This document shows positions 20,457 through 40,670 of a stretch of 64,000 nt of DNA, piece after piece. The stretch spans positions 248,001-312,000 of the forward strand of contig NZ_PVTF01000008.1 in the NCBI RefSeq assembly GCF_003002815.1, given 5' to 3'. Source of the DNA: Umezawaea tangerina. Lineage in GTDB: Bacteria; Actinomycetota; Actinomycetes; Mycobacteriales; Pseudonocardiaceae. The notes beneath the pieces were generated by a model. That model was not told the origin of the DNA and made no database searches. It saw only the letters and a list, made by a program, of their open reading frames with translations. Made by a program: the position numbers and the translations under genes. Each line of letters opens with the position of its first letter. Position 1 is the first letter of the stretch.

Positions 20457-21851
20457 TCACGAACCGGTGTAGCTGCGGTAGCGCAGCAGCACCCGGTCCA
20501 CCAGCGGCCCGGCGGCCCCGGTGTAGCAGGCCGGGTCCAGCAGCTCGGCGAGGTCGGCCGCGGCCAGCTCGGGCGCCTCGGCGAGGACGTCGCCGAGCGG
20601 GACGTCCGCCGCCGCGGCGCGGAACGCGGCCCCGGTCAGCAGCGACTTGGCCTTCGCCTTGCCCACCAACGGGGTCAGGGCCACCGCGAGGCGTTCCGCC
20701 ACGATGGCGCCGCGGGTGAGGGCGACGTTGGCCAGCATCCGCTCGGGGTGGACCTCCAGGCCCTCGGCCAGCTCCACGGCGGCGAACGCCGCGCCCCCGG
20801 CCAGCCGCAGCGCCTCCCGCAACGGCTGCCACTCGGCGTGCCAGGCCCCGGCGGGGCGCTCGTCCTCGGCGACCATGGACTGCGCCAGGACCATCGCGTG
20901 GGCGGGCACCTGCCGGGCGGCCGACACGATCAGCGTCGACAGCACCGGGTTGCGCTTCTGCGGCATCGCCGACGACGCGCCGCGCCCCTCGGCCGCGGGC
21001 TCGGTGACCTCGCCGATCTCCGTGCGGGACAACGTCTGCACGTCCACCGCGAACTTCCCCAGCGCCCCGGTGACGAAGCTCAGCACCGCGCCGAGGTCCG
21101 CGATCGGCGTGCGCACGGTGTGCCACGGCAGCACCGGCTCGGCCAGGCCCAGCTCCTCGGCGAACGGCGCGATCAGCTCCACACCGCCCAGCGGCAGCCC
21201 GCCCTCCCGCTTCGCGTGCTCCCCGTAGGCGGCCAGGGTCCCGGCCGCGCCGCCGAGCGAGGCGGGCAGCCCGGCGGAGGCCACCGACCGGACCCGCGCC
21301 AGCGCGTCGAGCACGAGCTGCAACCACCCGGCGGCCTTGAGCCCGAACGTCGTCGGCACCGCGTGCTGCGCCAGCGTCCGCCCGGCCACCAGGGTGTCGC
21401 GGTGCTCCTCGGCCAACGCGGCCAGCGCGGCCGCGACCCGGCTCAGGTCGGCGTCGATCCCGGCCAGCACCCGGCGGGCCACCAGCATCGCCGCCGAGTC
21501 CAGCACGTCCTGGCTGGTGGACCCGCGGTGCACGTGCTCGGCCGCCGCCGGGTCGACGGTCGCGACGAGCGCCGTGAACGCGGGCACCAGCGCCACCACG
21601 GGGTTCGCCGCCGCCCGCGACGCGCGGGCCAGCGCGACCAGGTCCAGCCTGTCGGCCTCGGCGGACTTGGTGATCACCTCGGCGTGCGCCGCGGGCACCA
21701 TGCCGATCCGCGCCTGCGCCCGCGCCAGCGCGGCCTCGACCTCCAGCATGGCCTGCAACCAGGCCTCGTCGCACGTCGACGCCTCGGCGGGCGTCCCTGT
21801 CCAGGTGGGGGCTAGCAGTCCGGAGTCGGTCCCGGCGGCGGTTCGGCTCAT
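20457..21851 (-). CDS. Fumarase/aspartase-superfamily lyase, CreD-like nitrosuccinate lyase candidate
   Basis: This 464-residue protein belongs to the PcaB/adenylosuccinate lyase branch. EHVHRGSTSQDVLDSAAMLV contains the conserved 'STSQD' active-site region, and ASSAMPQKRNPVLSTL is the superfamily signature SSxMPxKxNP. In the cremeomycin cluster CreD, a member of this branch, releases nitrous acid from nitrosuccinate, and it is always paired with the flavin enzyme CreE. Here the upstream gene overlaps it by 4 bp and is a CreE-type flavoprotein. A true 3-carboxymuconate cycloisomerase is less likely because no protocatechuate genes are nearby. The function is inferred from family and context. 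Confidence 0.72.
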   Translation of the reverse strand: MSRTAAGTDSGLLAPTWTGTPAEASTCDEAWLQAMLEVEAALARAQARIGMVPAAHAEVITKSAEADRLDLVALARASRAAANPVVALVPAFTALVATVDPAAAEHVHRGSTSQDVLDSAAMLVARRVLAGIDADLSRVAAALAALAEEHRDTLVAGRTLAQHAVPTTFGLKAAGWLQLVLDALARVRSVASAGLPASLGGAAGTLAAYGEHAKREGGLPLGGVELIAPFAEELGLAEPVLPWHTVRTPIADLGAVLSFVTGALGKFAVDVQTLSRTEIGEVTEPAAEGRGASSAMPQKRNPVLSTLIVSAARQVPAHAMVLAQSMVAEDERPAGAWHAEWQPLREALRLAGGAAFAAVELAEGLEVHPERMLANVALTRGAIVAERLAVALTPLVGKAKAKSLLTGAAFRAAAADVPLGDVLAEAPELAAADLAELLDPACYTGAAGPLVDRVLLRYRSYTGS

Positions 21852-23740
21852 GCTGTGGCGCTCCTGTACGGGCTGTGGATGGTGAGCACGGCGCGGGCGA
21901 TGGCGTCGGCGTCCTCCAACGTGACCGATCCGACGCCGGGGCGGATGCCCGCCGCCGTCACCCAGTGCACGCCCTCGGTGGGCACGCCGAAGGCGAACCG
22001 CGCGGGGTGCGCGGCACCCGTGCGGTCGACCAGGCGGTACGGGCGCCCGGTCACGGCGAGGCCGCCGCTCTCGTAGCCCCCGACCAGGTAGGGCCGCGAA
22101 CGGCCGGTGGTGAGCAGGTAGCGCAGCAGCGGGTTCGCGCTGCGCCGCACGTCGACGTCGGGCAGCCGGGCCTCCACGAGCGCGCGGCAGCGGACCGGGT
22201 CGCCGGGGACCTCCTGGGAGTCCACCAGGAACACCCCCTCCGCGGTAGACCGGCGGATCCTGATCCCCGGCCCGACCGCGTGCAGCACACCGGCCTCGAC
22301 CAGGGCGATCATCTCCTCGACCCGCCGCGCGGGCGGGCCGATCGAGGTGAACGCGTTGAGCGGGCTGTACCAGCCCTCCAGCTCGTCGCGGTAGGACGTG
22401 CCGCTGATGCCGCCGTGGTCCACCACCAGCCGGATCTCGTTGCGCAGGTCCCGCAGCACGTCGAGCGCGGACTTGAGCGGGCTGGACAGGTTGCCCATCC
22501 TGGCCTGCCGCACGTCCTGGTGCAGGTGCTCCAGCAGCCACGCCTGGAACTCCTCGCGCCCGCCGAACACGCGGTCGCCCTGCGGGCGTTCGACCAGCGC
22601 CCAGTCCCACCGCTGCTCGACCGGGACGCCGTACTTCTCCAGCAGGGCGTCGTCCTCGGCCGGGTCACCGTCCACGAAGGACCTGGTGAACGAGTCCGAG
22701 TCCACGTCGCCGCTCGCCGCGCGGATCAGGATCCCGTAGTAGACGGCCCTGACCTCGCGGTCCACCAGCGGCCACACGGCCTTGCGGAAGCCCACCGGCT
22801 CCCCGGACCCGGCCCGCGCGCGCAGCCCGGCGATCACCTCCTCGGTGAGGAAGAACGGCTGGTGCCTGCCGTGCGCGCCCTTCTGGTTCTCCCCGCGGGC
22901 GTGGTAGGGGATGCCGCGGCGGGATCCCGCGTGCAGCACGGGTTCCAGCCCGGACGGCTCGTAGCGCAGCCCGTCGGCGACGCGGTGGAACCGCCCGCCC
23001 CGGCCGACGGTGAGCAGCGCCAGGTAGTCGAAGAAGTTGAGCCCGACACCGCGCACCGCCACCACCGTGCCCGGAGCGATCGCGCTCAGGTCGACGTCGG
23101 CGGGGTTGGCGGGTTCGACGTGGGCCAGCCGGTGCCGCCGGGCGAACCGCCGGTTCTCGTCCTGCTCGCGGCTGCGCGCGAGTGGACCGTGGCCCAGCGC
23201 CAGCACGACCGCGTCCAGGCCGGTGAGCCGAGAGCCGTCCAGCAGCGTCACGGTCTGCGTGCCGTCCTCGTCGTCGTCGACCGCTACCGCGGTGCCCGCG
23301 TGCACCGAGATCGCGACCGACCCCGGCGCGGTCGCGACCAGCCGCTGGAACACCCAGTCCAGGTACCGCCCGTAGAACGCCCTGGTGGGGTAGTCGTCCG
23401 GGCCGAGCGAGGACGCCTGGGAGGCAACGGGTTCCGCGCACTCGACCGCGCCCGCGACCACCAGCCGGGCCCACTCGTACAGGCTCGGCCCCGGCACCAC
23501 GGGCCCCTCGCAGGGCACGCTGTCGTCGGTGTACAGGCTGATCTGCGAGGTGACCGTGTTCATCAGCAGGTGGTCGGACTGGTGGGTGCGCCACACGCCG
23601 CCCGGCCCCGGCGGGTACGGGTCGACCACGTGCACCTCCACCGGGCGGCCGTCCGCGTTGGCGCACAGGCGTTCCAGCACCGAGGTCCCGCGCGGGCCCG
23701 CCCCGACCAGGCAGACCCGCAGGGTGGCCCGCGCGCTCAT
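21848..23740 (-). CDS. FAD-dependent N-monooxygenase, CreE-like aspartate oxidase candidate
   Basis: The 630-residue protein starts MSARATLRVCLVGAGPRGTS, a GxGxxG dinucleotide-binding fold at the very N-terminus, followed by HVVDPYPPGPGGVWRTHQSD (the 'GG.W' FAD motif). A second NAD(P)-type glycine segment is around TVVAVRGVGLNFFDYLALLT. It matches the FAD-NAD(P)-binding family that contains CreE, which oxidises L-aspartate to nitrosuccinate. The gene overlaps both neighbours by 4 bp (reductase upstream, lyase downstream), so the pair is made stoichiometrically. A general flavin oxygenase role cannot be excluded. ATG 23740 is chosen from the glycine motif position. Confidence 0.72.
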   Translation of the reverse strand: MSARATLRVCLVGAGPRGTSVLERLCANADGRPVEVHVVDPYPPGPGGVWRTHQSDHLLMNTVTSQISLYTDDSVPCEGPVVPGPSLYEWARLVVAGAVECAEPVASQASSLGPDDYPTRAFYGRYLDWVFQRLVATAPGSVAISVHAGTAVAVDDDEDGTQTVTLLDGSRLTGLDAVVLALGHGPLARSREQDENRRFARRHRLAHVEPANPADVDLSAIAPGTVVAVRGVGLNFFDYLALLTVGRGGRFHRVADGLRYEPSGLEPVLHAGSRRGIPYHARGENQKGAHGRHQPFFLTEEVIAGLRARAGSGEPVGFRKAVWPLVDREVRAVYYGILIRAASGDVDSDSFTRSFVDGDPAEDDALLEKYGVPVEQRWDWALVERPQGDRVFGGREEFQAWLLEHLHQDVRQARMGNLSSPLKSALDVLRDLRNEIRLVVDHGGISGTSYRDELEGWYSPLNAFTSIGPPARRVEEMIALVEAGVLHAVGPGIRIRRSTAEGVFLVDSQEVPGDPVRCRALVEARLPDVDVRRSANPLLRYLLTTGRSRPYLVGGYESGGLAVTGRPYRLVDRTGAAHPARFAFGVPTEGVHWVTAAGIRPGVGSVTLEDADAIARAVLTIHSPYRSATA

Positions 23741-24642
23741 CCGGACGCCAGCCCGCGCCGCCACGACACCGACGGCTTCCACCCGAGCCGTTCGCGGGCC
23801 CGGTCGGTGCTCGCGCCGCGCATCGCGGTGAGCTGGTGGTTGGTGAACCACCCCAGCACCCGCTGCGCCATCTCCGCGTCCAGCACCCGCGGCTCGGGCG
23901 CGCCCAGCATCCGGGCGTACTCCGGCAGCCAGGCCGCCCCCTCGGCCGGGTCGTCGTCGGCGATGTTGAACACTCCGGTCACCTCACTGTCCACAGCGGA
24001 CAGAGCGGCGGTCGCGGCGTCGTCGACGTGCAGGAACGACGTCACGCCCACGGCGTCCTCCGGCAACGGCATCCGACCGCGGCCGACCCTGGCGCCGAAC
24101 GGGCCCTCCGGGTCGTACTGCGTCCGGGCGCCGAACAGGGTGCCGTAGCGCAGGATCGTGCCCGCGATGTCGGGCGTGCCCAGCACCAGCCGTTCCAGCT
24201 CGGCCACGGCCTGCACCGTCCGCGCCCACGACGGGTCGGGCGCGTCCAGGTGCAGCGGCGCGTCCTCGTCCAGCACGGGCCCGCCGAGCGGCGCGGTGGC
24301 GAACGCGATGCTCTGCACCACCAGCTTCCGCGTGCCCGCCTCCCTGGCCGCGGTGATGAGGTTCGCGGTGCCCTCGGTGCGCAGCCGGGCCGTGGTCTCC
24401 ATCGCGTCCGCGCTCATCTGCCGCAACGCGGTCAGCTGGTGCACCACGACGTCCGCGCGGGCGGCGCGCAGCGCGAGCCGCACCGCCACCGGGTCCAGGG
24501 CGTCGGCCACCACGACCTCGTCCGCCTCGGCGGTCCGCGACCCGTCGCGGACCATGGCGGTGACGTGGTGGCCCCTGGCCCGCAGCAACGGCAGCAGGGC
24601 GCTGCCGACAAGGCCGGTCGCACCGGCGACGAGCACCCGCAC
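23737..24642 (-). CDS. NAD(P)-dependent epimerase/dehydratase-family (extended SDR) reductase
   Basis: The 301-residue protein begins with GTG: VRVLVAGATGLVGSALLPLL, an N-terminal GxxGxxG motif. It continues as an extended/atypical SDR (EGTANLITAAREAGTRKLVV, LRYGTLFGA, SFLHVDDAATAALSAV). The region where YxxxK is expected reads SWARTVQAVAELERLV, so the catalytic Tyr appears absent, as in atypical members. In the avenalumic-acid pathway an NADPH-dependent reductase of this broad class removes the diazonium group after diazotisation. A comparable role is an attractive guess. It starts 2 bp after the stop of the Cys-rich gene and overlaps the flavoprotein gene. Confidence 0.75.
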   Translation of the reverse strand: MRVLVAGATGLVGSALLPLLRARGHHVTAMVRDGSRTAEADEVVVADALDPVAVRLALRAARADVVVHQLTALRQMSADAMETTARLRTEGTANLITAAREAGTRKLVVQSIAFATAPLGGPVLDEDAPLHLDAPDPSWARTVQAVAELERLVLGTPDIAGTILRYGTLFGARTQYDPEGPFGARVGRGRMPLPEDAVGVTSFLHVDDAATAALSAVDSEVTGVFNIADDDPAEGAAWLPEYARMLGAPEPRVLDAEMAQRVLGWFTNHQLTAMRGASTDRARERLGWKPSVSWRRGLASG

Positions 24643-24644
24643 CG

Positions 24645-25169
24645 CTAGTCCCCTTCCGCCGGAGCGATCCGCATCAGCAGCCTGCACGCCGGGTCGCCGT
24701 GCCGCAGGCACCCCGTCGAGCAGTTCTCCACCAGGGCCACGCCGAGACCGTCCGACCAGCCCGCGTGCACCTCGGTGCACGGGCACTCGTAGCCCTCGGT
24801 CGACCCGGCCATCCGCACCATGGTGAGCGCGAAGTTCTGCCGGATGGTGATCTCCACCAGCTCGTCGTCGAGCACCTCCGACCGGATGTCGCGCAGCTCG
24901 TGGGGGAACATCCGGTCGGCGCACGCGTCGTAGCGCTGCCGCAGCTCCTCCATGTCCCGCGCGGGCTTCCCACCGAAGTGGCGCGCGACCTTGCGGCCCA
25001 CGGCCGTGGCCACGTACCGCAGCGCCTCGGCGTTGACCTCGTTCGCGACCTCCTGGCCGAACCGCTTGGCCACGCCCTGGTACCAGCGGGCGTCGTGCAG
25101 CCACCAGGAGCGGTAGACGTCCATCATCTCCGCACGGGTGGTGCTGTCGACCTCCTCCACCGCCGTCAT
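24645..25169 (-). CDS. Small Cys-rich protein, DUF6125/V4R-like
   Basis: This 174-residue protein starts MTAVEEVDSTTRAEMMDVYR. The first half is helical and resembles the L-2-amino-thiazoline-4-carboxylate hydrolase/DUF6125 group (WWLHDARWYQGVAKRFGQEV, ANEVNAEALRYVATAVGRKV). The second half ends in a cysteine cluster, YECPCTEVHAGWSDG, then VENCSTGCLRHGDPACRLLM, resembling the metal- or ligand-binding end of V4R domains. The function is unknown. It overlaps the AMP ligase by 4 bp, so it belongs to the pathway. Family placement is by eye only. Confidence 0.6.
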   Translation of the reverse strand: MTAVEEVDSTTRAEMMDVYRSWWLHDARWYQGVAKRFGQEVANEVNAEALRYVATAVGRKVARHFGGKPARDMEELRQRYDACADRMFPHELRDIRSEVLDDELVEITIRQNFALTMVRMAGSTEGYECPCTEVHAGWSDGLGVALVENCSTGCLRHGDPACRLLMRIAPAEGD

Positions 25170-26824
25170 CGACCACCGCCGGAGAGCTGTTCCTGGAAGC
25201 GCTCGCGCATGAGCCGCTTGAGGACCTTGCCGGTCGCGCCCTTGACCACGTCGGTCGCGTCCATCCGCAGCGCCCGCGTCAGCGTCGGGAAGCCCTTGGC
25301 GCGCAACACCTCGTTGACCAGCTCGGTCCACTTCGCGTCGTCGGTGCCGTCGTCGGCGACCTGGAGCAGCACGTAGGCGTCGGCCAGCCCGTCGCCGTCC
25401 CAGTCGGCCCGGACGCCCTCGGGCGCCACGCCGACCACGGTGCAGTCGGCCAGCACGGGCAGCTCGGCCAGCAGCAGCTCCTCGGTGCGGGTGCTGAAGA
25501 CGATGCCCTCGGCGGTGCGGATCGCGTCCGGCGCCCGGTCGAGGTGGTAGAAGTTGCCCTGCTCGTCCTGCATCGACAGGTCGCCGGTCAACCAGTACCC
25601 GCCCAGCCGCAACCGGTGGAACGTCAGGGAGTCGTTCCAGTAGCCGGGGGTCAGCGTGGGGGAGCGCACCCCGAGCCTGCCGACCACGCCGGGCGGCAGC
25701 GGCTCGCCGTCCTCGGAGAGCACCGCGGCCTCGGCGAAGCTGATCGGCTTGCCGATGCACCGGCCGTAGGCGGCGCTGCCCGGCTTGTGGCCGTTGTGGA
25801 AGATCGAGTACCCGGTCTCCGACGAGCCGAGCCCGTCGGTGAACACCGAGCCCGCGACCCGCACGCGCTGGAAGTCCTCGCCCACGGTCTCGTGGCTGCC
25901 CTGCGCGATCAGCTCCCGCACGTGCGCCTCGTGCGCCGCGTCCCCGGTGTTGTACCAGGCCTCGACGCTGTCCAGGTCGCGCGCGGACAGGTCCTCCGCG
26001 GCCATCTCGCCGTAGGTGCCGGCGAACGCGAAGATCGTGGTCGGGTGGAACCCCTCCGCCGCGTCGAGCACGTCCACACCGCGCTGGCTGGACAGCAGCT
26101 TCACCGGCGAGCGCAGCAGGAAGCCGAACAGCATCACCGAGATCGCGGCGTTGTGCGAGCCCGGCAGCGCCACCAGCAGCCTGCCCATCGCGGCCCCGAC
26201 CGACAGCCGCAGGCGGTGCAGCTGCGCGTACAGCAGGGTCTCGTGGGTGTGCGGCACGGCCTTGGGCATGCCGGTCGTGCCGGAGGAGTGCGAGATGATG
26301 ATCGGGTCGGTCTTGTGGTGGGAGTAGGGGTAGCTCTCGGGCAGCGGCCCGGACGCGGTGATGTCCTGGGCCGTGACCAGGAAACCGAGCTCCAGGTCGT
26401 CGTGCGCGAGCGTCGGGTGGTGCTCGACGTCGGCCACCGCGCCGACCGCGCCCTGGCGGCGGATGTACTCGCGGGCGATCTCGGGGCGCAGGTTGCCGTT
26501 GACGAACGACGGGATGGCGCCCAGCGAGGTCAGCGCCAGGAAGTTCACCGCGAACTCGGTGCTGGACCGGGTCTGGATGGCCACCGGGTCCCTCGGCTTC
26601 ACGCCCCTGGCGTGGAACCAGGAGGCGTAGGCCTCGACGGCGGCGTGCAGCTCGCCGAGCGTGAGCACCTCGGGGTGGGTCCCGTCGGGCGCGAGCCAGG
26701 TGCCGTCGGTCCAGAGCACGTCGTCGTCCATCGACCTGCCGTAGGCCTTCAGCCGGTGGATGACGTTGCCCGCGCCGAGCGTGCCGTCGTTCAGCACCTG
26801 CGCGCGTTCCGCTTTGCTGATCAT
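25166..26824 (-). CDS. AMP-forming acyl-CoA ligase homologue (possible CreM/AvaA6-like diazotase)
   Basis: The 552-residue ANL enzyme (MISKAERAQVLNDGTLGAGN) has core motif IISHSSGTTGMPKAVPHTHE, the acyl-binding loop DGLGSSETGYSIF, GGYWLTGDLSMQDEQGNFYH and a C-terminal Lys in VVKGATGKVLKR. By length and position it is distinct from the second ligase in the operon. In cremeomycin and avenalumic-acid pathways an enzyme of this class uses ATP to activate nitrite for aromatic diazotisation. Because nitrite-forming enzymes are encoded just downstream, I suggest that role. Ordinary CoA or ACP ligation is the alternative. Genes on both sides overlap by 4 bp. Confidence 0.75.
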   Translation of the reverse strand: MISKAERAQVLNDGTLGAGNVIHRLKAYGRSMDDDVLWTDGTWLAPDGTHPEVLTLGELHAAVEAYASWFHARGVKPRDPVAIQTRSSTEFAVNFLALTSLGAIPSFVNGNLRPEIAREYIRRQGAVGAVADVEHHPTLAHDDLELGFLVTAQDITASGPLPESYPYSHHKTDPIIISHSSGTTGMPKAVPHTHETLLYAQLHRLRLSVGAAMGRLLVALPGSHNAAISVMLFGFLLRSPVKLLSSQRGVDVLDAAEGFHPTTIFAFAGTYGEMAAEDLSARDLDSVEAWYNTGDAAHEAHVRELIAQGSHETVGEDFQRVRVAGSVFTDGLGSSETGYSIFHNGHKPGSAAYGRCIGKPISFAEAAVLSEDGEPLPPGVVGRLGVRSPTLTPGYWNDSLTFHRLRLGGYWLTGDLSMQDEQGNFYHLDRAPDAIRTAEGIVFSTRTEELLLAELPVLADCTVVGVAPEGVRADWDGDGLADAYVLLQVADDGTDDAKWTELVNEVLRAKGFPTLTRALRMDATDVVKGATGKVLKRLMRERFQEQLSGGGR

Positions 26825-27384
26825 GGTGTCGACCCTTTGTTCTGGGCGGCCAGTGCGGCCAGCTGTCGGAGGTCTTGGCCGCCGGGTTCGGCGGCGGGGG
26901 AGTCGCGGTCGACGAGCAGGGCGACCGCGTAGTCCTCGGTGGGGGGCGGGACGTCCAGCTCCCGCAGCGCCGCGGTGGCGCGGTCGTTCGCGGCCAGCTC
27001 GACGCCGACGACGAGCACCCGGTCGAGCTCCGGGTCGTCCAGCAGGACGGCCGCGGCGTCGAGCAGCTCGAAGCCCAGGTCCGCGGTCGCGGACAGCGCC
27101 ACCAGCGGTCCGGTGATCCCGAACTCCTTGCTCAGGTAGCCGAGGACGGCGTTCGGGGTGGCCTGCATGAACAGCAGCGGGTTGCCCACCTGCCCGCCGA
27201 CCATCAGCGTGCTCGCCAGGTCGGTCGTGGTGGCGTCGCCGACGACGCTGCCCAGCACGACCGCGGTCCGCGTGCCGTCGCCGGGGTGCTCGACCAGGCA
27301 GCGGTGCGCGACCGCGTTCACCAGCGGGCTGAACGTGGACTCGATGAAGCCGGGCAGCGGCTCGGCGCTGCTCGCGGTCGTCAC
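26821..27384 (-). CDS. Short ketosynthase-like protein without active Cys (chain-length-factor candidate)
   Basis: The 187-residue product MTTASSAEPLPGFIESTFSP matches only the N-terminal half of a beta-ketoacyl synthase (Ketoacyl-synt_2-type): LFMQATPNAVLGYLSKEFGI, TGPLVALSATADLGFELLDA, LDDPELDRVLVVGVELAAND. Where active KSs have TACSSG it has SATADLG, so it cannot carry out condensation. In aryl-polyene systems a protein of this sort (ApeC) pairs with the KS as chain-length factor. It overlaps the true KS gene by 4 bp, which supports a heterodimer. A start at 27384 is fixed by that overlap. Confidence 0.75.
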   Translation of the reverse strand: MTTASSAEPLPGFIESTFSPLVNAVAHRCLVEHPGDGTRTAVVLGSVVGDATTTDLASTLMVGGQVGNPLLFMQATPNAVLGYLSKEFGITGPLVALSATADLGFELLDAAAVLLDDPELDRVLVVGVELAANDRATAALRELDVPPPTEDYAVALLVDRDSPAAEPGGQDLRQLAALAAQNKGSTP

Positions 27385-28523
27385 GGGCGCTCCAGCAGGA
27401 GCGCGGTGTTGGCCCCGCCGAACGCCGCGTTGATGCTCAGCACCCGCCGCACGTCGGCTTCGCGGCTCCGGTTGGGCACGACGTCGAGGTCGCAGTCCGG
27501 GTCGGGCCCGGTGAGGTTCGCGGTGGGCGGCAGCACGCCGTCGCTGAGCGCCAGCAGCGCGATCACCAGCTCCACGACCCCGGCGGCTTCCAGCAGGTGG
27601 CCGGTCGTGCTCTTGGTGGAGCTGACCGGGACCCGGTCGGCGCGCGTGCCGAACACCTCGCGCAGCCCGCGGGTCTCGGCCGGGTCGTTGTGCTTGGTCG
27701 CGGTGCCGTGCGCGTTCACGTAGTCGACCCGCAGCCCGTCCGGGTCGCCGGCGCGGCGCAGCGCCCGACCGACCGCGGCGGCCAGCCCGGCGCCCTCCGG
27801 GTGCGGCCGGGCGATGTGGTGCGCGTCGGAGGCGGCGCCCCAGCCGACGACACCCGCCAGCGGTCGCGCGCCCCGGCGCCGCGCGGCCGTCGCCGACTCC
27901 AGCACCACCGCGGCCGCGCCGTCACCGAGCAGCAGCCCGTCGCGGTCCGCGCTGAACGGCCGGATCACGCCTCCGCGCGACAACGCCCGGCCCGAGTCGA
28001 ACTTGGCGAAGTTCTCCTCCTCCACCAGGTAGGCGCCCGCGCACACGGCCGACTCCAGCCGCCCGGACGCGATCAGCCCGCAGGCGTGGATGATCGCGGT
28101 CGCGGAGGCGACGCAGGCGTTGGTGAACGCCAGCCGCCGCCCCGTCGCGCCGAGCCGCGCGGCGAGCAGGTCGGCCAGCCGCGAGGGCACCGTGTCGGCC
28201 ACCTCGACACCCGCCTCGCCGCGCCGGAACCGGGTCAGCGCGGCGAAGTCGCCCGCCGTGCCGACCAGCACGGCGGTGTCCTCGCCCGCGGTGAACCCGG
28301 CCATCCCCACGGCGTCGTCGGCGCACTCGCCGAGCACGTCGCGCAGCGCGTCGGGCTTGTCGCCCCCGGTCGTGGCGGCGAACCGGGTCCGGTAGGGGGC
28401 GGTGTCGAACCGGGTCGTCGGCGCGAACGCGTGCACACCGCCGAAGACACCGCGCCGCACGGCGTCGGCGCCCCGGCCGAAGGCCGTCCGCACCCCGAAC
28501 CCGGTCACCACGACCTCACCCAT
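27381..28523 (-). CDS. Beta-ketoacyl-ACP synthase (type II PKS/FabF-like)
   Basis: The 380-residue enzyme from ATG 28523 (MGEVVVTGFGVRTAFGRGAD) has the full KS triad: Cys near residue 137 in AFTNACVASATA, His in VNAHGTATKHND, and the second His with its Lys in SSTKSTTGHLLEAAG. It would extend an ACP-bound aryl starter with malonyl units. The active-site Cys context (TNACVAS) is closer to KSs of aryl-polyene and avenalumic-type systems than to aromatic PKSs, a judgement by eye. It overlaps the ACP gene by 8 bp and the KS-like gene by 4 bp. ATG 28535 is a possible earlier start. Confidence 0.88.
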   Translation of the reverse strand: MGEVVVTGFGVRTAFGRGADAVRRGVFGGVHAFAPTTRFDTAPYRTRFAATTGGDKPDALRDVLGECADDAVGMAGFTAGEDTAVLVGTAGDFAALTRFRRGEAGVEVADTVPSRLADLLAARLGATGRRLAFTNACVASATAIIHACGLIASGRLESAVCAGAYLVEEENFAKFDSGRALSRGGVIRPFSADRDGLLLGDGAAAVVLESATAARRRGARPLAGVVGWGAASDAHHIARPHPEGAGLAAAVGRALRRAGDPDGLRVDYVNAHGTATKHNDPAETRGLREVFGTRADRVPVSSTKSTTGHLLEAAGVVELVIALLALSDGVLPPTANLTGPDPDCDLDVVPNRSREADVRRVLSINAAFGGANTALLLERP

Positions 28524-28788
28524 CGACGCGTCCACCGGCCTTGTTGACGTAGTCGGTGATGCCGCGGATCGAGCCGAACGCCGTGATCAGCTCGTCCTCG
28601 GGCTCGATCACCAGGTCGTGCTTGGTGCCCAGCAGGTGCAGGAACCACACCAGCCCCAACGAGTCCAGCGCCAGCTCGGCGTCCTCGTCGAGCTCGGCGG
28701 GCAGCTCGGGGAAGATCTTGGGGTCGGACAGCAGCTCCCGCACCACGTCCGTGGTGATCTCCACCCGTGCCGAGGATCCGGTCGTCAT
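28516..28788 (-). CDS. Acyl carrier protein (first of two)
   Basis: The 90-residue acidic helical protein MTTGSSARVEITTDVVRELL contains the phosphopantetheine site LALDSLGLVWFLHLL (Ser 43). The loop PELPAELDEDAELALD and helix 3 are typical of ACPs, although the recognition helix ends in the less common HLLGTKHDL. Its start overlaps the stop of the second ACP by 4 bp. Two consecutive ACPs of different sequence suggest separate roles, for instance one carrying the starter and the other the growing chain. Confidence 0.85.
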   Translation of the reverse strand: MTTGSSARVEITTDVVRELLSDPKIFPELPAELDEDAELALDSLGLVWFLHLLGTKHDLVIEPEDELITAFGSIRGITDYVNKAGGRVDG

Positions 28789-29057
28789 GCTGTCGCGCCC
28801 CTCCCGGCCACGTCGGCCGCCAGCTCGCCGAGCGTCATGGCGCCGAGCGGTTCGATGTCGGTCTCCGGGAACTGCACGTTGAACCGCCGCTCCAGCCTCA
28901 TCGTCAGCTCGATCAGGCTCAACGAGTCCAGGTCGATGCCGCCGCTGCCCAGCGGGCTGGCGACGTCGACCTCGCCGTCGTCGATCGGGTGGTTCATGTC
29001 CTTGGTGACCGTGGTGACGATGAACTCGCGGATCTCGTTCTCGAGTGCTGCTGGCAT
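28785..29057 (-). CDS. Acyl carrier protein (second of two)
   Basis: This 90-residue protein MPAALENEIREFIVTTVTKD has the attachment motif GIDLDSLSLIELTMRLERRF (Ser 45) and PETDIEPLGAMTLGELAADV in helix 4, a standard ACP pattern. The ATG at 29057 follows AGAAGGGGTCGACCC, a good ribosome binding site, 26 bp after the AMP ligase stop. This is one of the few non-overlapping junctions of the operon. It is only weakly similar to the neighbouring ACP, so the two did not arise by recent duplication. Confidence 0.88.
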   Translation of the reverse strand: MPAALENEIREFIVTTVTKDMNHPIDDGEVDVASPLGSGGIDLDSLSLIELTMRLERRFNVQFPETDIEPLGAMTLGELAADVAGRGATA

Positions 29058-29083
29058 GGGTCGACCCCTTCTGTGGTGGGACT

Positions 29084-30502
29084 TCAGGACGGTTCCGGCA
29101 CGGCGGCGCGCAGGGTCTGCGTGCGCCGGATCAACTTCCCGTTCGGCGTGCGCGGCAACGACGGCAGCACCCGGACCAGCCGCGGCACCTTGTAGGCGGC
29201 CAGCCGGTCGCGGCACCAGCCGACGAGCTCACCCGCGCCCGGCCCGTCGTCCTCGGCGGACACGTAGGCCTCGATGGACTCGGCGTGGACCACGACGACG
29301 TCGGTGACGCGGGGGTGCTGGCGCAGCACGGACTCGACCTCGACCAGGTCGACCTTGAGCCCGCCGATCACGACCAGCGAGTCGCTGCGGCCCAGCAGCC
29401 GGACGGCTCCGCGCTCGTCCTGCGAGGCGCGGTCGTGCGTGCGCAACCAGCCGTCGACGTACCGCTCCGTCGCGGGGTGACCGGACGCGGCCGCGCCGCT
29501 CCCGGACTCGAACAGGTAGGGCGTGCCCTCCGGCAGCTCCACCTCCAGCTCGCCGTCGGCGACCCGCAGCACGACGCCGGGCGCGGCCCTGCCGACCGCG
29601 GGCCGCAGGTCCCCGCTCACGTCCATCGCGATCACACCGGTCTCGGTGGTGCCGTAGGACTCGCCGAGCCCCACGCCGAACCGCTCCCGGAACGCCTCCG
29701 CGACCCCGGCGGGCATCAGCTCGCCACCGGACACCGCCGCCCGCAGGGACGGCAGCACCGGCACGGACCTCGTCGTGGTCAGCAGCTCGTAGTGGAACGG
29801 CGTGCCGAAGATCGCGTGCACGTCGTGCCGCTCGGCCGTGGCCAGGACGTCCTTCGCGGACAGTCGGGGCGTGAACACCGCCGCCACCCCCGCGGCGAGC
29901 GAGTGCAGCAGCCCGGCGACCAGGCCGAAGCTGTGCGCGGTGGAGCTGAGCAGCAGCACCCGTTCGCCCGCCGTGGGCATGCGGTCGATCCGGGTGAACC
30001 GCTCGACCTCCGCCGCCAGCGACCCCGGCGTCCGGCCGATCACCTTGGGCAGCCCCGTGGACCCCGAGCTGAACTGGACCAGCCGGTGGTCGGTCGCGGC
30101 CCGCTCGCCGTCGCGGTGGTGCTTGGTGACCAGCTCGTAGGTCGGCTGGAACGCCATCGCGAACCGGCCGCCCGCCGTGGCCCGCACGGTGAACTCCGGG
30201 CGGCACAGCCCGCGCAGCGCCTCGACCTCCGCGGGCGCGAGCCGGTGGTCCACCAGCATCACCTGCGCCCCCAACGACCACAGGGCGAACACCACCTCGA
30301 CCTGGGTCCGGCTCGACGGCACCTGCACCAGGACCGCCGACCCGTCCCCGATGCCGAAACCGCCGAACACCTTGGCCTCCGCGGCGACGGACGCGCGGAC
30401 CTCGTCGCGGTCCACGACGCGCTCGTCGTGCACGAGGTAGGGCAGGCCGCCGGGGTGCGCCTCGAACAGCTCGTCGAGCAGGGCCCGCATTCCGCCGCCC
30501 AT
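29084..30502 (-). CDS. AMP ligase, likely aryl-ACP ligase for 3,4-AHBA
   Basis: The 472-residue ANL enzyme starts MGGGMRALLDELFEAHPGGL. It shows the phosphate-binding loop VQFSSGSTGLPKVIGRTP, GLGESYGTTETGVIAMDVSG, hinge segment LGRSDSLVVIGGLKVDLVEV and catalytic Lys in RTPNGKLIRRTQTL. It lies directly between the gene for 3-amino-4-hydroxybenzoate formation and the ACPs, so loading that acid onto an ACP is the natural hypothesis. It overlaps the upstream gene by 1 bp. The frame is open upstream, but the homology and overlap set ATG 30502. Confidence 0.82.
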   Translation of the reverse strand: MGGGMRALLDELFEAHPGGLPYLVHDERVVDRDEVRASVAAEAKVFGGFGIGDGSAVLVQVPSSRTQVEVVFALWSLGAQVMLVDHRLAPAEVEALRGLCRPEFTVRATAGGRFAMAFQPTYELVTKHHRDGERAATDHRLVQFSSGSTGLPKVIGRTPGSLAAEVERFTRIDRMPTAGERVLLLSSTAHSFGLVAGLLHSLAAGVAAVFTPRLSAKDVLATAERHDVHAIFGTPFHYELLTTTRSVPVLPSLRAAVSGGELMPAGVAEAFRERFGVGLGESYGTTETGVIAMDVSGDLRPAVGRAAPGVVLRVADGELEVELPEGTPYLFESGSGAAASGHPATERYVDGWLRTHDRASQDERGAVRLLGRSDSLVVIGGLKVDLVEVESVLRQHPRVTDVVVVHAESIEAYVSAEDDGPGAGELVGWCRDRLAAYKVPRLVRVLPSLPRTPNGKLIRRTQTLRAAVPEPS

Positions 30503-31599
30503 CAGCTCTCCTTGCAGAATTCGCCGATCGGGATGCCCACGTGCCGCTGGTCGGTGGCCAGGTAGCCCAGCAGCTCGTCGCCCTGGCGCAGCTCGGTCAC
30601 GTTGCGGACCTTGCCGCCGGGGCCGAGCAGCCGGACGTGCCAGTCGTCCTGCACCGTCAGGCTGACCTCGACGCCGTCCACCGAGTGCGCGGTGATGCTC
30701 AGCAGCGGCCGGGACTCGAGCTTGGACCGCCCCACCACGACCCGGCGGGTGCGGCCCTCGGAGTTGACCGCGAGCACCGTGCTGCCGGAGTGCAGCTCGC
30801 TGAGGTAGTTCGTCCGGTTGTCCGGGCCGAGCACGTAGGAGTGCAGCGCGCCCGCGTTGACCCGGAACGGCCGGGTCGGCATGTAGGGCAACGGGTGCGT
30901 CTCGCTGCAGGACAGCAGGAACCCGGTCGAGAACGACCCGACCAGGATGCCCTCGTCCTCCTCGAAGTGCGTGCAGGTGTCCACGCACACCCGGTCGCCG
31001 AGGCCGTGGTGCTCGATGCGGTCCACGATCAGCGTCGCCAGCTCCAGCTTCGGGCTGGTCGCCTCCAGCAGCCTGCTCAGCGCGAACACCTCGGTGGCGT
31101 CCTTGGGCGCCAGCATCACGCCCTCGGAGCCGCGTTCCAGCACGTCCACGACGATCGAGGCCTCCTCGATGTCGGCGCAGACGGTGAACAGGCTGCCCGG
31201 CGCGCGGTCGGCCGCCGCCAGCACGATCTCCAGCGGGATCTTCGTCGGGTCGGCGAACCGCACCACGCTGTAGGGCAGCGCGACCGCGGCCGCGCACGCC
31301 AGCTGCAGGGTGCGGTCGTCGTGCACGTCCACCCACGCGGCGGCGTTCTCGTCGCCGCGGCTGGCGAGCACGAGCTCGTCGAGCTGGGCCTGGTCGGCGA
31401 CCACGGTGGTGGTGATGCCGCCGAACCCCTCACCGCCGTCGGCGCCGACGAGCACGCCCGCGATGGTCGGGGGCAGCGTCGCGAGCACGGCGGGGTCGTC
31501 GGACACCAGGCCGTGCAGCCGGGAGTGGATCGCGGCGTCGACGACGCCTTCCACGTGCTGCGGGGCCACGGTGCGGAGGTCGATCCAAGCGAGCGTCAT
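30502..31599 (-). CDS. 3-dehydroquinate synthase II homologue (GriH-like, 3-amino-4-hydroxybenzoate synthase)
   Basis: This 365-residue protein starts [20 protein letters not shown]. It belongs to the archaeal-type AroB' family: GVMLAPKDATEVFALSRLLE, RVCVDTCTHFEEDEGILVGS, FSTGFLLSCSETHPLPYMPT, RPFRVNAGALHSYVLGPDNR and TNYLSELHSGSTVLAVNSEG are its conserved blocks. In actinomycetes the homologue GriH converts the GriI aldol product to 3-amino-4-hydroxybenzoate. The aldolase gene overlaps it by 4 bp just upstream, which makes this role much more likely than shikimate synthesis. Bacteria normally make dehydroquinate with the unrelated AroB. Confidence 0.88.
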   Translation of the reverse strand: MTLAWIDLRTVAPQHVEGVVDAAIHSRLHGLVSDDPAVLATLPPTIAGVLVGADGGEGFGGITTTVVADQAQLDELVLASRGDENAAAWVDVHDDRTLQLACAAAVALPYSVVRFADPTKIPLEIVLAAADRAPGSLFTVCADIEEASIVVDVLERGSEGVMLAPKDATEVFALSRLLEATSPKLELATLIVDRIEHHGLGDRVCVDTCTHFEEDEGILVGSFSTGFLLSCSETHPLPYMPTRPFRVNAGALHSYVLGPDNRTNYLSELHSGSTVLAVNSEGRTRRVVVGRSKLESRPLLSITAHSVDGVEVSLTVQDDWHVRLLGPGGKVRNVTELRQGDELLGYLATDQRHVGIPIGEFCKES

Positions 31600-32405
31600 A
31601 CGGCACCTGTCGTCATCGTCGGAAGAGGGGGGAAGTCGGCCCGCGGGCCGGGCGCGTGCACGACGGCGGCGAGCCGGGCGACGAGCGAGGCGGGGTTGGA
31701 CGAGGTGAAGACCTTGCGCCCCACGGCGAGCCCGGCGCAGCCCGCGGCCATCACCTGGGTGGCGTGGGCGACCACGTCGGAGCCGTCGGTCGGGCCGCCC
31801 GCGACGAGCACGGGCACCGGTGAGCTGGCGACGACCTCCGCCATGCGGTGCACGGGCAGCGTCACCGAGGTCTTCACGATGTCGGCGCCCAGGTCGGCCG
31901 CGATGTTGACGACGTGCGCCAGCAGGGCGGGGTCGTGCGGGTCGGTGATGCGGGGACCGCGCGGGTAGGCCATCGCGATCAGCGGCAGCCCCCAGGCGTC
32001 GCACGCCGTCGCGACCGCGCCGAGGTCGGCCAGTTGCCGCTCCTCGGTGTCCGAGCCGATGTTCACGTGCACGCTGACCGCGTCCGCGCCGAGCCGCAGC
32101 GCGTCCTCGGCCTCGCCGACGAGCACCTTGGCGTTGGTGTCGGCCGCGTGGGACGTGCCCGCGCTCAGGTGCACCACGAGCGCGCAGGTCGCCAGCACGT
32201 CCGGTGGCACCGTGCGCGCCCGTCCCTTGTGGACGATGATCGCGTCGGCGCCGCCCGCGACGAGGTCGCGGAGCAGGTCGTGCCACCGGTCGTTGGGGAC
32301 GACCGGGCCGTCGGACACGCTGTGGTCCAGGGGGACGAACAGGTGCCTGCCGTCGTTCGCCGAGGACAGCCTGCGCATTCGGAAGAGCTTCCCGGTATTC
32401 GCCAT
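31596..32405 (-). CDS. DhnA-type class I aldolase (GriI-like)
   Basis: The 269-residue TIM-barrel aldolase starts [20 protein letters not shown] and reads [62 protein letters not shown] (Schiff-base Lys) and [16 protein letters not shown]. GriI condenses aspartate semialdehyde with dihydroxyacetone phosphate to give the precursor of 3-amino-4-hydroxybenzoate. It is the first gene of the long operon. A near-perfect Shine-Dalgarno AAAAGGAGGTG lies about 9 bp ahead of ATG 32405, which fixes the start despite open frame upstream. Confidence 0.88.
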
Positions 32406-32502
32406 GGCCGTTGACACCTCCTTTTCGTGAACTGGTCGGAGAGAAGGAAGTGGAGGGGGAATCTGCGCCGCCACGCTAGCCGGGGGCCGGGATCGCGGAC
32501 AA

Positions 32503-32531
32503 ATAACTTCTACCGATAACCCGGCAGTTAT
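32503..32531. promoter_or_regulatory. Repeated ATAAC half-sites in the cluster's divergent promoter
   Basis: The 279 bp between the aldolase and flavodoxin starts contains no gene. Within it ATAAC occurs at 32503-32507 and again at 32516-32520, and GTTAT at 32527-32531 completes a 5-6-5 inverted repeat with the second copy. It is AT-rich against the background. A LysR-type or similar regulator could bind here and control both directions. The LysR gene at the end of the rightward operon is the first candidate. Confidence 0.4.
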
Positions 32532-32684
32532 GGCCGGTCGGGGCGAATTCGTCGGCATCGGTTACCGGGGTGTATACCGCCGATCGGCGCATCCGGTTCC
32601 CAGGGAATGGGCTCTAAGAAGTTTCTCATTTCCGGCTGGCACATTCGTGGGGTCGCCGGGCTCGGCGTTGAGCGGGAGGTCGTC

Positions 32685-33290
32685 TTGAGAGGTCCGACGG
32701 ATCCGGTGCTGCTGGTCGTGGCCAGCCACGACGGGCGAGGGCACACCGGCAGGCTCGCCGAGGCGGTCCGCAAGGGCGCCGGCGAGGTCGAGGGCACCGA
32801 GGTGGTGGCCATCGCCGTCGACGACATGGCACCTGAGCAGTGGTTCCTGCTCGACGACGCGGACGCGGTCATCTTCGGCGCCCCGACCTACATGGGGTCG
32901 GCGTCGGCGGCGTTCCACCGGTTCGCGGAGGCCAGCAGCAGGCGGTGGCTGACCCGCCGGTGGCAGGACAAGCTCGCTGCGGGGTTCACCAACTCGGGCG
33001 CGAAGGCGGGGGACAAGTCCGGCACGCTCGGGTACCTCACCACATTCGCGGCCCAGCACGGAATGGTGTGGGTCAACCTCGGCCTGCGTTCCGGCTGGAA
33101 CTCCACGAAGGGCAGCGAGGACGACCTCAACCGGCTGGGCTTTTCCCACGGGGTCGCCGCTCAGTCCAACACCGACGAGGGGCCGGAACGGATGCACGAG
33201 TCCGACCTGGCCACCGCCGAGTACCTGGGGAAAAGGGTTGCCTCCTACGCGCGGATCGTCGCCGAGGGAAAGAAGGCGATGGGCGGGTGA
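32685..33290 (+). CDS. Flavodoxin-family NAD(P)H oxidoreductase
   Basis: The 201-residue protein is a WrbA/flavodoxin-like fold: PVLLVVASHDGRGHTGRLAE is the FMN phosphate loop, DADAVIFGAPTYMGSASAAF the second FMN loop, and AAGFTNSGAKAGDKSGTLGY the third. TTG 32685 is chosen because GCGGGAGG lies 5 bp before it and the fold begins there; ATG 32607 has no ribosome binding site. It is the first gene of the rightward operon and overlaps the exporter start (GTGA at 33287). It may reduce a quinone-like or nitroso intermediate of the cluster, which is inference. Confidence 0.8.
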   Translation: MRGPTDPVLLVVASHDGRGHTGRLAEAVRKGAGEVEGTEVVAIAVDDMAPEQWFLLDDADAVIFGAPTYMGSASAAFHRFAEASSRRWLTRRWQDKLAAGFTNSGAKAGDKSGTLGYLTTFAAQHGMVWVNLGLRSGWNSTKGSEDDLNRLGFSHGVAAQSNTDEGPERMHESDLATAEYLGKRVASYARIVAEGKKAMGG

Positions 33291-34819
33291 AAAGGGTTTC
33301 CGAGATCGGCGGCACCGCGGCGGGGGAGCGCGTGGTCGCGCACCCGTGGCTGGTGGTCGCCGTCGCGGTGGGAGCCCAGACGCTGCTCTGGCTGGACAAC
33401 TCCATCCTCAACATCGCGCTGGAGACCCTCGCGGACCCGGTGCGCGGGCTCGGCGCGACCGCGGGCGAGCTCGCCTGGGCGGGCAGCTCGTACTCGCTGG
33501 TCTTCGCCGCCGCCATGTTCGCAGGCGGCGCGCTCGGCGACCGCTACGGGCCGCGCGCGACCATGGTCGTCGGCCTGGTGGTGTTCTCCACGGCGTCGGC
33601 GTTCGGCGCGGTCAGCAGCACCATGCCGGAGCTGGTCGTGGCCCGCGGGTTCATGGGCGCGGGCAGCGCGCTGCTGATGCCCGCGACGCTGTCGGTCGTC
33701 GTGCGCTCGACCTCGGAGGCCGACCGGCCCAAGGCCATCGCGCTGTGGGCGTCGGCCAGCGGCATCGGCGTCGCGCTGGGACCGGTGCTGGGCGGCGCGC
33801 TGCTGGCCCGGTTCTGGTGGGGCTCGGTGTTCCTGGTCAACGTGCCGATCGTGCTGGTCTGCCTGGTGGGCGTCGCGGCCTTCGTGCCGCGGCTGCGGCT
33901 GCCCGAGCGGCGACCGCTGGACCCGGCCGGGCTGGTGCTCTCGGTGCTGGGGCTGGGCAGCCTGGTCTACGGGATCATCGAGGGCGGCGACCATGCCGAC
34001 TGGACGGCGCCGGGCGCCCTCGTGCCGCTGGTGCTGGGCGTGCTGCTGCTGGCGTGGTTCGTGCGCGTGCAGCGTTCGGCCGAGCACCCGAGCTTCGACG
34101 TGACGTTGTTCACGGTCCGGCGGTTCGCAGGCGGCAGCGTCGCCCTGCTGGTCGCGTTCTTCGGGTTGACGGGGCAGCTTTTCGCCAACGCCTTCTACCT
34201 CCAGGGCATCCGCGGGCTCACCCCGTTCGGCGCCGGTGTGGTCATGGTGGCCGCGGCCGTGGGCATCGTCGTCGGCAACCTGGTCTCGCCGCGGGTCACC
34301 GGGTACCTCACGGTCCGCTGGACGGTGGTCGGCGGGATGCTGCTGGCCATCGCCACGTTCGCGGGCTACGTGTTCTTCGACCAGCGCACGCCCATCGCGG
34401 TGCTGGTGGCGGTCCTGGTGGCGCAGGGCTTCGGCATGGGCATGATCAGCGCCCCGATCACCACCGCGATGATGGCCGTCCTGCCACCCGCGGTCAGCGG
34501 CGCGGGCGCGGCGATCAACAGCGCCATGCGGCAGGTCGGCGGAGCGCTGGGCACCGCGGTGCTCGGGTCCGTGCTCACGGCGGCCTACCACCGCGCGATC
34601 ACCCCGAGCCTGGCCCGGTTGCCGGAGCCCGTGCGCGACCAGGCGGCGGAGTCCGCGCAGGGCGCCAGGGCGGTGGCCGCGACCTCCGGGCAGCCGTGGC
34701 TCGCCGACGCGGCGGACAGCGCTTTCCTGCACGCGATGCGCACGTCCTCGACCTGGGGCACCCTGCTGTGCCTGGTCGGGGTCGTGTTCGTCGCCAGAAG
34801 TCTTCGACCGGAGAGGTGA
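33287..34819 (+). CDS. 14-TM MFS exporter (DHA2 family)
   Basis: The 510-residue membrane protein starts with GTG (VKRVSEIGGTAAGERVVAHP). The drug:H+ antiporter-2 features are visible: LLWLDNSILNIALETLADPV (motif D1), GGALGDRYGPRATMVVGLVV (motif A), GSALLMPATLSVVVRSTSEA and ASGIGVALGPVLGGALLARF (motif C). Fourteen hydrophobic segments are countable. Placed between the flavodoxin and LysR genes and next to the biosynthetic operon, it probably exports the cluster's product and gives self-resistance. Confidence 0.88.
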   Translation: MKRVSEIGGTAAGERVVAHPWLVVAVAVGAQTLLWLDNSILNIALETLADPVRGLGATAGELAWAGSSYSLVFAAAMFAGGALGDRYGPRATMVVGLVVFSTASAFGAVSSTMPELVVARGFMGAGSALLMPATLSVVVRSTSEADRPKAIALWASASGIGVALGPVLGGALLARFWWGSVFLVNVPIVLVCLVGVAAFVPRLRLPERRPLDPAGLVLSVLGLGSLVYGIIEGGDHADWTAPGALVPLVLGVLLLAWFVRVQRSAEHPSFDVTLFTVRRFAGGSVALLVAFFGLTGQLFANAFYLQGIRGLTPFGAGVVMVAAAVGIVVGNLVSPRVTGYLTVRWTVVGGMLLAIATFAGYVFFDQRTPIAVLVAVLVAQGFGMGMISAPITTAMMAVLPPAVSGAGAAINSAMRQVGGALGTAVLGSVLTAAYHRAITPSLARLPEPVRDQAAESAQGARAVAATSGQPWLADAADSAFLHAMRTSSTWGTLLCLVGVVFVARSLRPER

Positions 34820-34827
34820 AGGGCGTC

Positions 34828-35784
34828 ATGGAGTTGGGACTTCGACACCTGCGGGTCGTCGTGGCCGTGGCCGAGGCGGGCAGCGTCAGCCGGGCCGCCT
34901 CCGCGCTGCGCATCGCGCAGTCGGGGCTCACCGCGCAGCTGGCCAGGATCGAGCGGGAGTTCGGCGCGCCGCTGTTCGTCCGGCGGTCGCAGGGCGTGGA
35001 GCCGACGGAGCTGGGCACGCATGTCCTGCTGGGCGCCAAGGGCGTGATCGCCGGGTTCGAGGAGCTCGTCGCGTCGACCCGCCGCCGGGCCCACGCGGGG
35101 TCGACGACGGCGGTCCGGCTCGGCGGCGTGGACAGCCCGTGGATCCCCGCGGCCGCGGCCGCGCTGCGCGGCCTGCTGCCCGGCCACGAGCAGATCACCT
35201 ACGTGGAGGACAGCTCCGCCGAGGTCGTGGAGCTGGTCCGCACCGGGGGCCTCGACCTCGCGGTGATCACCGAGTTCCCGGACGTGCCCGCGCCGACCGA
35301 CCACCGGCTGGTCGTGCGCGAGGTCGACGTCGAGCCGCTGCTCGTCGGGATGCGCGCCGACCACCCCGACGCCGCCCGCGACCGGGTCCGGCTCGCCGAC
35401 CTCGCCCGGCACGACTGGATCGCGCCACCGGACCGGGCGGGAGGGCTGCGGCGCAGCCTGCGCACGGCGTGCGAACGGGCCGGGTTCGCGCCGCGGTTCC
35501 GGCACTTCGGCGTCGACCAGGCCACCGCCGCCACGATCGTCGCCTCCGGCACGGCCGTCGGGATCTTCCCGGCGCACACCGGCCACGTGCCGGGCGTGGT
35601 GTTCCGCGCCGTGTCCGACGAACCGCTGTGGTGCCGCACGTCCCTGCTCTGGCAACCGGGCTCGCCGGTGGCGCACCTGGCCGCGGAGCTGGTCGGGGCG
35701 GTGGTGGACGAGCGGTTCGGCAGGCGCCCCCAGCCGTTCCGCGTCCTGGACCGGGTGACCGGCGACTACCCGCGGGCCGGGTGA
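34828..35784 (+). CDS. LysR-family regulator of the cluster (candidate)
   Basis: This 318-residue protein starts MELGLRHLRVVVAVAEAGSV with HTH SRAASALRIAQSGLTAQLAR and an effector domain (VRLGGVDSPWIPAAAAALRG; VVELVRTGGLDLAVITEFPD). It begins 8 bp after the exporter stop with GAGAGGTGAAGGGCGTC ahead of the ATG, so it is in the same operon. It may be the pathway-specific regulator acting on the divergent promoter around 32500. Its 3' end overlaps the convergent histidine kinase by 19 bp. Confidence 0.88.
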   Translation: MELGLRHLRVVVAVAEAGSVSRAASALRIAQSGLTAQLARIEREFGAPLFVRRSQGVEPTELGTHVLLGAKGVIAGFEELVASTRRRAHAGSTTAVRLGGVDSPWIPAAAAALRGLLPGHEQITYVEDSSAEVVELVRTGGLDLAVITEFPDVPAPTDHRLVVREVDVEPLLVGMRADHPDAARDRVRLADLARHDWIAPPDRAGGLRRSLRTACERAGFAPRFRHFGVDQATAATIVASGTAVGIFPAHTGHVPGVVFRAVSDEPLWCRTSLLWQPGSPVAHLAAELVGAVVDERFGRRPQPFRVLDRVTGDYPRAG

Positions 35785-37801: not shown

Positions 37802-37881
37802 CTTGGCACTTCCGGCCCGCCGCCACACCCCCTATCTGACTGTGAGTCGTGTCCCTGGTACGGAAAGCTACGGGAAAGCGG

Positions 37882-40500: not shown

Positions 40501-40543
40501 CGAACTCCTTCCGATGAGCCCGCGGCGACGGTGACGGGGCTTC

Positions 40544-40557
40544 TGGGAGCGTTCCCA
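40544..40557. promoter_or_regulatory. CebR/CelR-type operator of the GH12 gene
   Basis: TGGGAGCGTTCCCA differs at one position from the published LacI-family cellulose-repressor operator TGGGAGCGCTCCCA. It lies 44 bp upstream of the GH12 start. A second, weaker match is upstream of the RICIN/GSDH gene at 15999. The cognate repressor is not encoded in this window. Confidence 0.75.
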
Positions 40558-40632
40558 GACTAGGTACCCGCCCGTGGGCGCGCTACACCTGGCGAGCTCG
40601 GCGTCGGTGTCCGGCGGAAAAAATCCGCGACG

Positions 40633-40670
40633 GGTGTCGATCGGCGGGCGGCCCGTTCGACGCAGGGGTA
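40633..40670 (+). promoter_or_regulatory. ECF-type promoter of the PNPOx gene (shared motif)
   Basis: TGTCGAT (40635-40641) and CGAC (40658-40661) are 16 bp apart, and the flanking blocks GGTGTCGAT and TTCGACGCAGGGGTA are identical to those at 6142-6179 upstream of the DoxX gene. The last base of the motif is the A of the start codon, so the transcript should be leaderless or nearly so. Confidence 0.65.

Follow-up and report, generated by a model that had tools for sequence, protein, structure and literature searches.

The closest described system is the cma gene cluster of Kutzneria albida which was shown in 2024 to make p-coumaric acid (PMC10777205) and carries its genes in the order R, F, G and I, H, A1, A2, A3, A4, A5, A6, B, A7, E, D. 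The same paper reports that expression of cma in Streptomyces albus yielded p-coumaric acid, that loading by CmaA1/CmaA3 and diazotisation by CmaA6 were demonstrated in vitro, and that the kinetics of A7 were measured for the ava enzyme (PMC10777205). Omission of cmaG reduced N-acetyl-3-aminocoumaric acid, and CmaG was proposed as a ketoreductase; the roles of G and B, and the identity of the dehydratase and thioesterase, are likewise presented there as proposals (PMC10777205). The ava cluster of Streptomyces sp. RI-77, which makes avenalumic acid with two malonyl extensions, has a FabG-like A8 and AvaC, and is without G and R (PMC10777205, Table 1). The cremeomycin (cre), grixazone (gri) and crexazone (crx) clusters are related through 3-amino-4-hydroxybenzoate (3,4-AHBA) and/or CreD/CreE nitrous-acid chemistry, as described in part in PMC11429834.

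The window analysed here, a stretch of 64,000 nucleotides from Umezawaea tangerina, has all 15 genes (R, F, G / I, H, A1-A6, B, A7, E, D) in common with the K. albida cluster. Twelve closely packed genes run on the minus strand from 32405 to 20457, and G, F and R are divergent from them, spanning approximately 32685-35784 on the plus strand; most of the open reading frames overlap, and every named gene is intact. This agrees with the preliminary description, which had proposed one overlapped operon with a divergent flavodoxin, exporter and LysR gene, and whose aryl ligase, two acyl carrier proteins (ACPs), ketosynthase (KS), second ANL ligase and reductase were all found by HMM searches at the level of family (A3 by its residues). 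On the plus strand, G (32685..33290) is a cmaG-like WrbA-type FMN oxidoreductase (Pfam FMN_red, 4.5e-10; WrbA-like structure 3d7n, 1.8e-43), which probably starts at the TTG at 32685, with GGGAGG just upstream, rather than at 32607, from where the frame is open. F (33287..34819) is a cmaF-like MFS exporter, export being predicted from homology (Pfam MFS_1, 5.8e-46), and R (34828..35784) is a cmaR-like LysR regulator (Pfam HTH_1 and LysR_substrate).

The minus-strand set begins with the predicted 3,4-AHBA genes. I (31596..32405; step 1) encodes a cmaI-like DeoC/LacD-type aldolase (Pfam DeoC, 8.4e-47) and H (30502..31599; step 2) a cmaH-like DHQS-II-type enzyme (Pfam DHQS, 3e-106). Both receive generic names only from NCBIfam, I from the ADH-synthase model NF005556 (307.8 bits, cut-off 241) and H from the DHQS-II subfamily model NF002625 (515.3 bits, cut-off 375). 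The GriI- and GriH-like calls made earlier held for the families, DeoC and DHQS, and did not reach the 3,4-AHBA-specific cut-offs, as I scored 281.7 bits against 500 for BagB/FevI and H 418.9 bits against 750 for BagC/FevH. Because these specific cut-offs were missed, the assignment of the pair to 3,4-AHBA synthesis draws on family, genomic context and synteny with cmaI and cmaH. Two canonical aroB genes, both over the cut-off of the aroB model, lie elsewhere in the genome, so that I and H need not serve the shikimate pathway; a shikimate role, which would have undercut the earlier proposal, is unlikely.

A cmaA1-like acyl-ACP ligase, A1 (29084..30490; Pfam AMP-binding and AMP-binding_C), would load 3,4-AHBA, and is followed by the two ACPs and the KS/chain-length factor (CLF) pair. 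A2 (28785..29057; Pfam PP-binding) is a cmaA2-like ACP and, by analogy, a malonyl carrier; its Ser45 and Glu50 are kept in 34/34 cma-type and 18/18 ava-type loci. A3 (28516..28788) has no Pfam match and was recognised as the cmaA3-like, putative 3,4-AHBA carrier by Ser43, Trp48 and His51, likewise kept in 34/34 cma-type and 18/18 ava-type loci. The Trp/His pair, absent from A2, has been tied to starter-ACP recognition in PMC10777205. A4 (27381..28535) is a cmaA4-like ketosynthase with both ketoacyl-synt domains (N and C), and its Cys141-His276-His313 triad is kept in 35/35 cma-type and 18/18 ava-type loci. A5 (26821..27384) is a cmaA5-like short chain-length factor of 187 residues which corresponds to the KS N-terminal half only (Pfam ketoacyl-synt, 4.7e-07); the earlier call of a 'Cys-less' KS-like partner was right as to the KS likeness, and wrong as to cysteine, of which A5 holds one.

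For the nitrous-acid enzymes, D (20457..21851), a cmaD-like nitrosuccinate lyase with the lyase signature SSAMPQKRNP, passes the nitrosuccinate-lyase equivalog NF052556 (671.1 bits, cut-off 650), in keeping with the CreD-like call made earlier. E (21848..23740) is an FAD/NAD(P)-binding protein (Pfam NAD_binding_9, 3.4e-45) for which NCBIfam gave no match; among solved structures it matched one, 8cp2 ('FAD-binding protein', 5.7e-205). Its putative role as a cmaE-like aspartate monooxygenase (nitrosuccinate synthase) is suggested by the 8cp2 match and by its position beside D. The second ANL enzyme, A6 (25166..26824), is a cmaA6-like ATP-dependent diazotase that scores 1097.6 bits against the 3-aminoavenalumate diazotase equivalog NF058622 (cut-off 975), its solved relative being 8ztz/9ijf (2.1e-272). 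A7 (23737..24642), a cmaA7-like NADPH-dependent diazo reductase of the SDR-type family, scores 519.8 bits against the 3-diazoavenalumate denitrifying reductase equivalog NF058621 (cut-off 400).

Taken with the KS-CLF pair, the two ACPs and the acyl-ACP ligase, these assignments identify the window cluster as very probably a new member of the cma type, a gene set already described. The cma subtype is marked by the presence of G and R and the absence of avaA8 and avaC; the window has G and R and a single MFS gene. The ava cluster shares I, H, A1-A7, B, E, D and an MFS homologue with the window; its combination of a FabG-like A8 with no G or R is not that of the window, where the assigned genes of the operon (open reading frames and Pfam) include no FabG/A8-like gene. 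The cre, gri and crx clusters are not known to have a KS/CLF extension or an AvaA7-type reductase. Inferred at every step from the cma precedent, the pathway would run as follows: I and H would form 3-amino-4-hydroxybenzoate, which A1 would load onto A3; A4/A5 with malonyl-A2 would add one C2 unit; E and D would convert aspartate to nitrous acid, with which A6 would diazotise the amino group; A7 would exchange the diazo group for an NADPH-derived hydride; and F would export p-coumarate. This is the logic of the preliminary description (3,4-AHBA starter, KS/CLF-ACP extension and nitrous-acid diazotisation), and it is supported by Pfam, NCBIfam and solved relatives. The further suggestion that the product may be new, made from the missing ketoreductase/dehydratase pair together with the Cys-rich protein and flavodoxin, was rejected: all three are normal in cma, which makes p-coumaric acid (PMC10777205), and so give no sign of a new product. 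The best reading is that the product would be p-coumaric acid or a chain-length homologue of it. The PfkB gene and other genes below 20457 were considered as members and rejected, since a comparison with 34 loci found a match to PfkB in one, L055 of the same genus, although some of the stretches end shortly after D.

Within the window's family, 22 of 390 genomes have a match to the A6 model above its cut-off, as do 25 of 392 sampled Streptomyces genomes, and the cluster is present in all three genomes of the window's genus examined. Fifty-three loci besides the window were compared and grouped by hand into 18 ava-type (Streptomyces, without G) and 35 cma-type loci; the ava-type loci are also without R, save for one weak 27% match. 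All 15 genes lie within the fetched stretch in 14 of the 35 other cma-type loci, and L053 becomes a 15th complete locus if its flank (L149) is counted; several kb separate G, F and R from I in this locus. The short contigs L004 and L010 lack G, L068 carries G on the opposite side and gave no match to B, F or R, and the remaining cma-type loci variously lack D/E, A7 or F. The FabG-like motif was found in 8/18 ava-type stretches and in 1/35 cma-type stretches (L121, 11.9 kb from A6).

With the machinery assigned, the chain length and the fate of the diazo group were weighed. The same machinery could make avenalumic acid or a longer or shorter homologue if its CLF sets another chain length, as CLFs are argued to do in PMC10777205, which also reports a third CLF clade of unknown product. 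The CLF tree places the window A5 in its own supported clade of six Umezawaea and Lentzea rows (99/98), apart from a Kutzneria-like clade of eight rows (seven of genus g24, one of g26) and from the ava clade of 18 rows (100/100), and the window A5 shares 47% overall identity with L060, a Kutzneria-like A5, and 37% with L123, an ava-type one. The label 'Kutzneria-like' for g24 is inferred from the g24 A5 (L060), which is 27-37% identical to the 18 ava-type rows (published CmaA5/AvaA5 identity, 35.4%), and from an A6 that is closer to 8ztz, which we guess to be CmaA6, than the window A6 is. Because the window CLF falls in a clade separate from the Kutzneria-like rows, the K. albida chain length cannot simply be transferred. 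However, the gene content is that of the cma subtype (the window has G and R, and its operon carries no A8-like gene), and the window CLF, at 187 residues, resembles the short Kutzneria-like CLFs (165-175), whereas ava-type CLFs are longer (233-314 residues; start codons chosen by script). A different chain length is rather unlikely, and p-coumarate is likely, not assured, as the product. Far less credible is a product in which the diazo intermediate is captured rather than reduced, so that a new diazo or N-N compound would result. In its favour, the cluster has A6, E and D, and five other cma-type loci have no A7 match (L003, L005, L012, L058 and L059), their genomes being without an over-cut-off A7 (that of L059 has a distant 220.7-bit match). 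In the window, however, A7 is intact and over its cut-off, and searches with neighbouring genes (PfkB, hydrolase, HAD, luciferase-like, transglycosylase and the gene at 39751-40707) found none of them at matching strength beyond a congener, so that no extra tailoring gene stands out. The five loci without A7 are themselves possible diazo-coumarate producers.

The cma-type cluster does not end with R. A sensor histidine kinase gene (35766..37112, minus strand; Pfam HisKA and HATPase_c) is convergent to R and overlaps its end at 35784, and is followed by the gene of its partner, an OmpR-type response regulator (37112..37828, minus strand; Pfam Response_reg and Trans_reg_C), adjacent to it in relatives as well; the conserved unit therefore extends past 35784 to 37828. 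The pair is present at 20 of 36 cma-type clusters (window counted) across several genera, beside R in 19 and on the other side in L059. Searches of their genomes found the pair absent from 13 of the 36, although in L011 and L053 R still adjoins a related regulator (51-55% identical), with no kinase, and L058 has a weaker one (45%); L004, L010 and L065 lie near contig ends, the genome of L065 also being without a match. The pair is absent from all 18 ava-type stretches, where the matches were 31% for a kinase and 34% for a regulator in L124 and 39% for a regulator fragment in L140. These 13 clusters without the pair, together with a weaker kinase relative elsewhere in six of their genomes (170-302 bits), are what would be expected if the pair were a chance neighbour. 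Against this, all eight kinases of at least 400 bits among the best four candidates scored per genome in 390 family genomes adjoin the cluster, in genomes with a diazotase over cut-off (hypergeometric 2.6e-11, treating genomes as unrelated), and the next-best family kinase scored 321 bits. The position on the opposite side in L059 and the spread over genera also speak against it, as does the next gene, a transglycosylase beyond 37828, which was matched in only 1 of 20 flank stretches and was for that reason rejected as a shared cluster member. A chance association is therefore improbable. The cluster kinase was the best match in 10 of 12 genomes reached through named loci (372-535 bits), with the second-best below 100 bits in nine of those ten and at 245 bits in Lentzea nigeriaca. 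The main text of PMC10777205, supplement aside, mentions no kinase or two-component system for the K. albida cluster. The link between this pair and cma clusters seems to be new here, with a regulatory role predicted from conservation alone. The transglycosylase gene itself (37882-39639, Pfam Transgly) adjoins the response regulator gene and was matched in one congener only.

Two candidate control sites, both of which seem to be new, were found between I and G. The LysR-type palindrome ATAAC-N6-GTTAT (32516..32531) is a putative operator of R, which would govern the divergent I/G promoters, and the direct repeat TGAGA-N6-TTAGA(G) (32612..32628, minus strand) is a candidate response-regulator site, through which the kinase/regulator pair may provide a second, signal-dependent input. 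Its 11-bp spacing is typical of OmpR/PhoB-family sites. Searches of the 400 bp upstream of I (35 cma-type loci, including the window and excluding L004, which has no I, and 18 ava-type loci) gave ATAA[CT]-N6-[AG]TTAT in 29/35 cma-type regions (33 when relaxed) and 0/18 ava-type regions (1 when relaxed), and T[CGT]A[GA]A-N6-T[CT]A[GA]A in 30/35 and 0/18, counts that describe rather than test, because both patterns were defined after inspecting the sequences. Elsewhere in 661 kb of cma-type loci, on both strands, the palindrome had no match and the direct repeat one, in the long I-G gap of L011. The repeat is present in 20/20 clusters with the pair and in 10/15 without it, so another protein may bind it. 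At genome scale, the looser TNAGA-N6-TNAGAG matched at four places, one here and three elsewhere, against two for the reversed pattern, and the repeat is accordingly not specific by itself. The repeat remains a candidate, without independent support of the palindrome's kind.

For the palindrome, that support comes from a second locus. The whole 10.68-Mb genome holds just two copies of ATAAC-N6-GTTAT, which have the same spacer, and no match to the reversed pattern. The second copy separates another I (68% identical) from another LysR gene (43%) in a 3,4-AHBA mini-locus (G000:C2:723957-729549, L154:3957-9549), where a further H (71%) and a ligase resembling A1 (50%) follow and an arylamine N-acetyltransferase gene lies nearby. 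The two other genomes of the genus keep this locus, as does one Lentzea, in which no acetyltransferase was matched; all 3 relatives examined have a palindrome fitting the pattern at the orthologous position. The second locus supports the palindrome as an operator of CmaR-type regulators and suggests that both 3,4-AHBA loci share control.

The match to cma ties an apparent orphan cluster to a characterised pathway, in which p-coumaric acid, a common plant phenol, is reached by a long and costly route that first makes an amino intermediate and from it a diazo one. The explanation is mostly known; the regulatory annex is the new and directly testable part, and candidate operators for two types of regulator, which the main text of PMC10777205 does not offer, make it testable when and why actinomycetes make p-coumaric acid. 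A more speculative and rather unlikely combination is that the Umezawaea/Lentzea CLF clade sets a length other than that of p-coumarate, while an envelope kinase and a LysR regulon join the two 3,4-AHBA loci to one diazotisation pathway.

Protein B (24645..25169, minus strand), the cmaB-like Cys-rich accessory protein, has only weak, sub-cut-off Pfam matches in its window copy, to DUF6125 and ATC_hydrolase, and a search of solved structures gave no match (best E 0.22). Fifty-three of its 174 positions are invariant in an alignment of 33 rows, including seven Cys/His residues (H25, C83, C129, C131, H135, C154 and C162). B may be an enzyme, and a part for it as the missing dehydratase or thioesterase is no more than an idea. 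Separately, D and E are missing from the 11 Streptomyces cma-type stretches long enough to show them (for example L003, L005 and L007-L009; L004 and L006 end too soon), and relatives of D, some over cut-off, occur elsewhere in those genomes. Five g24 genomes (L141-L145) have a second, distant E-like flavoprotein (36-45% identical) several kb beyond R.
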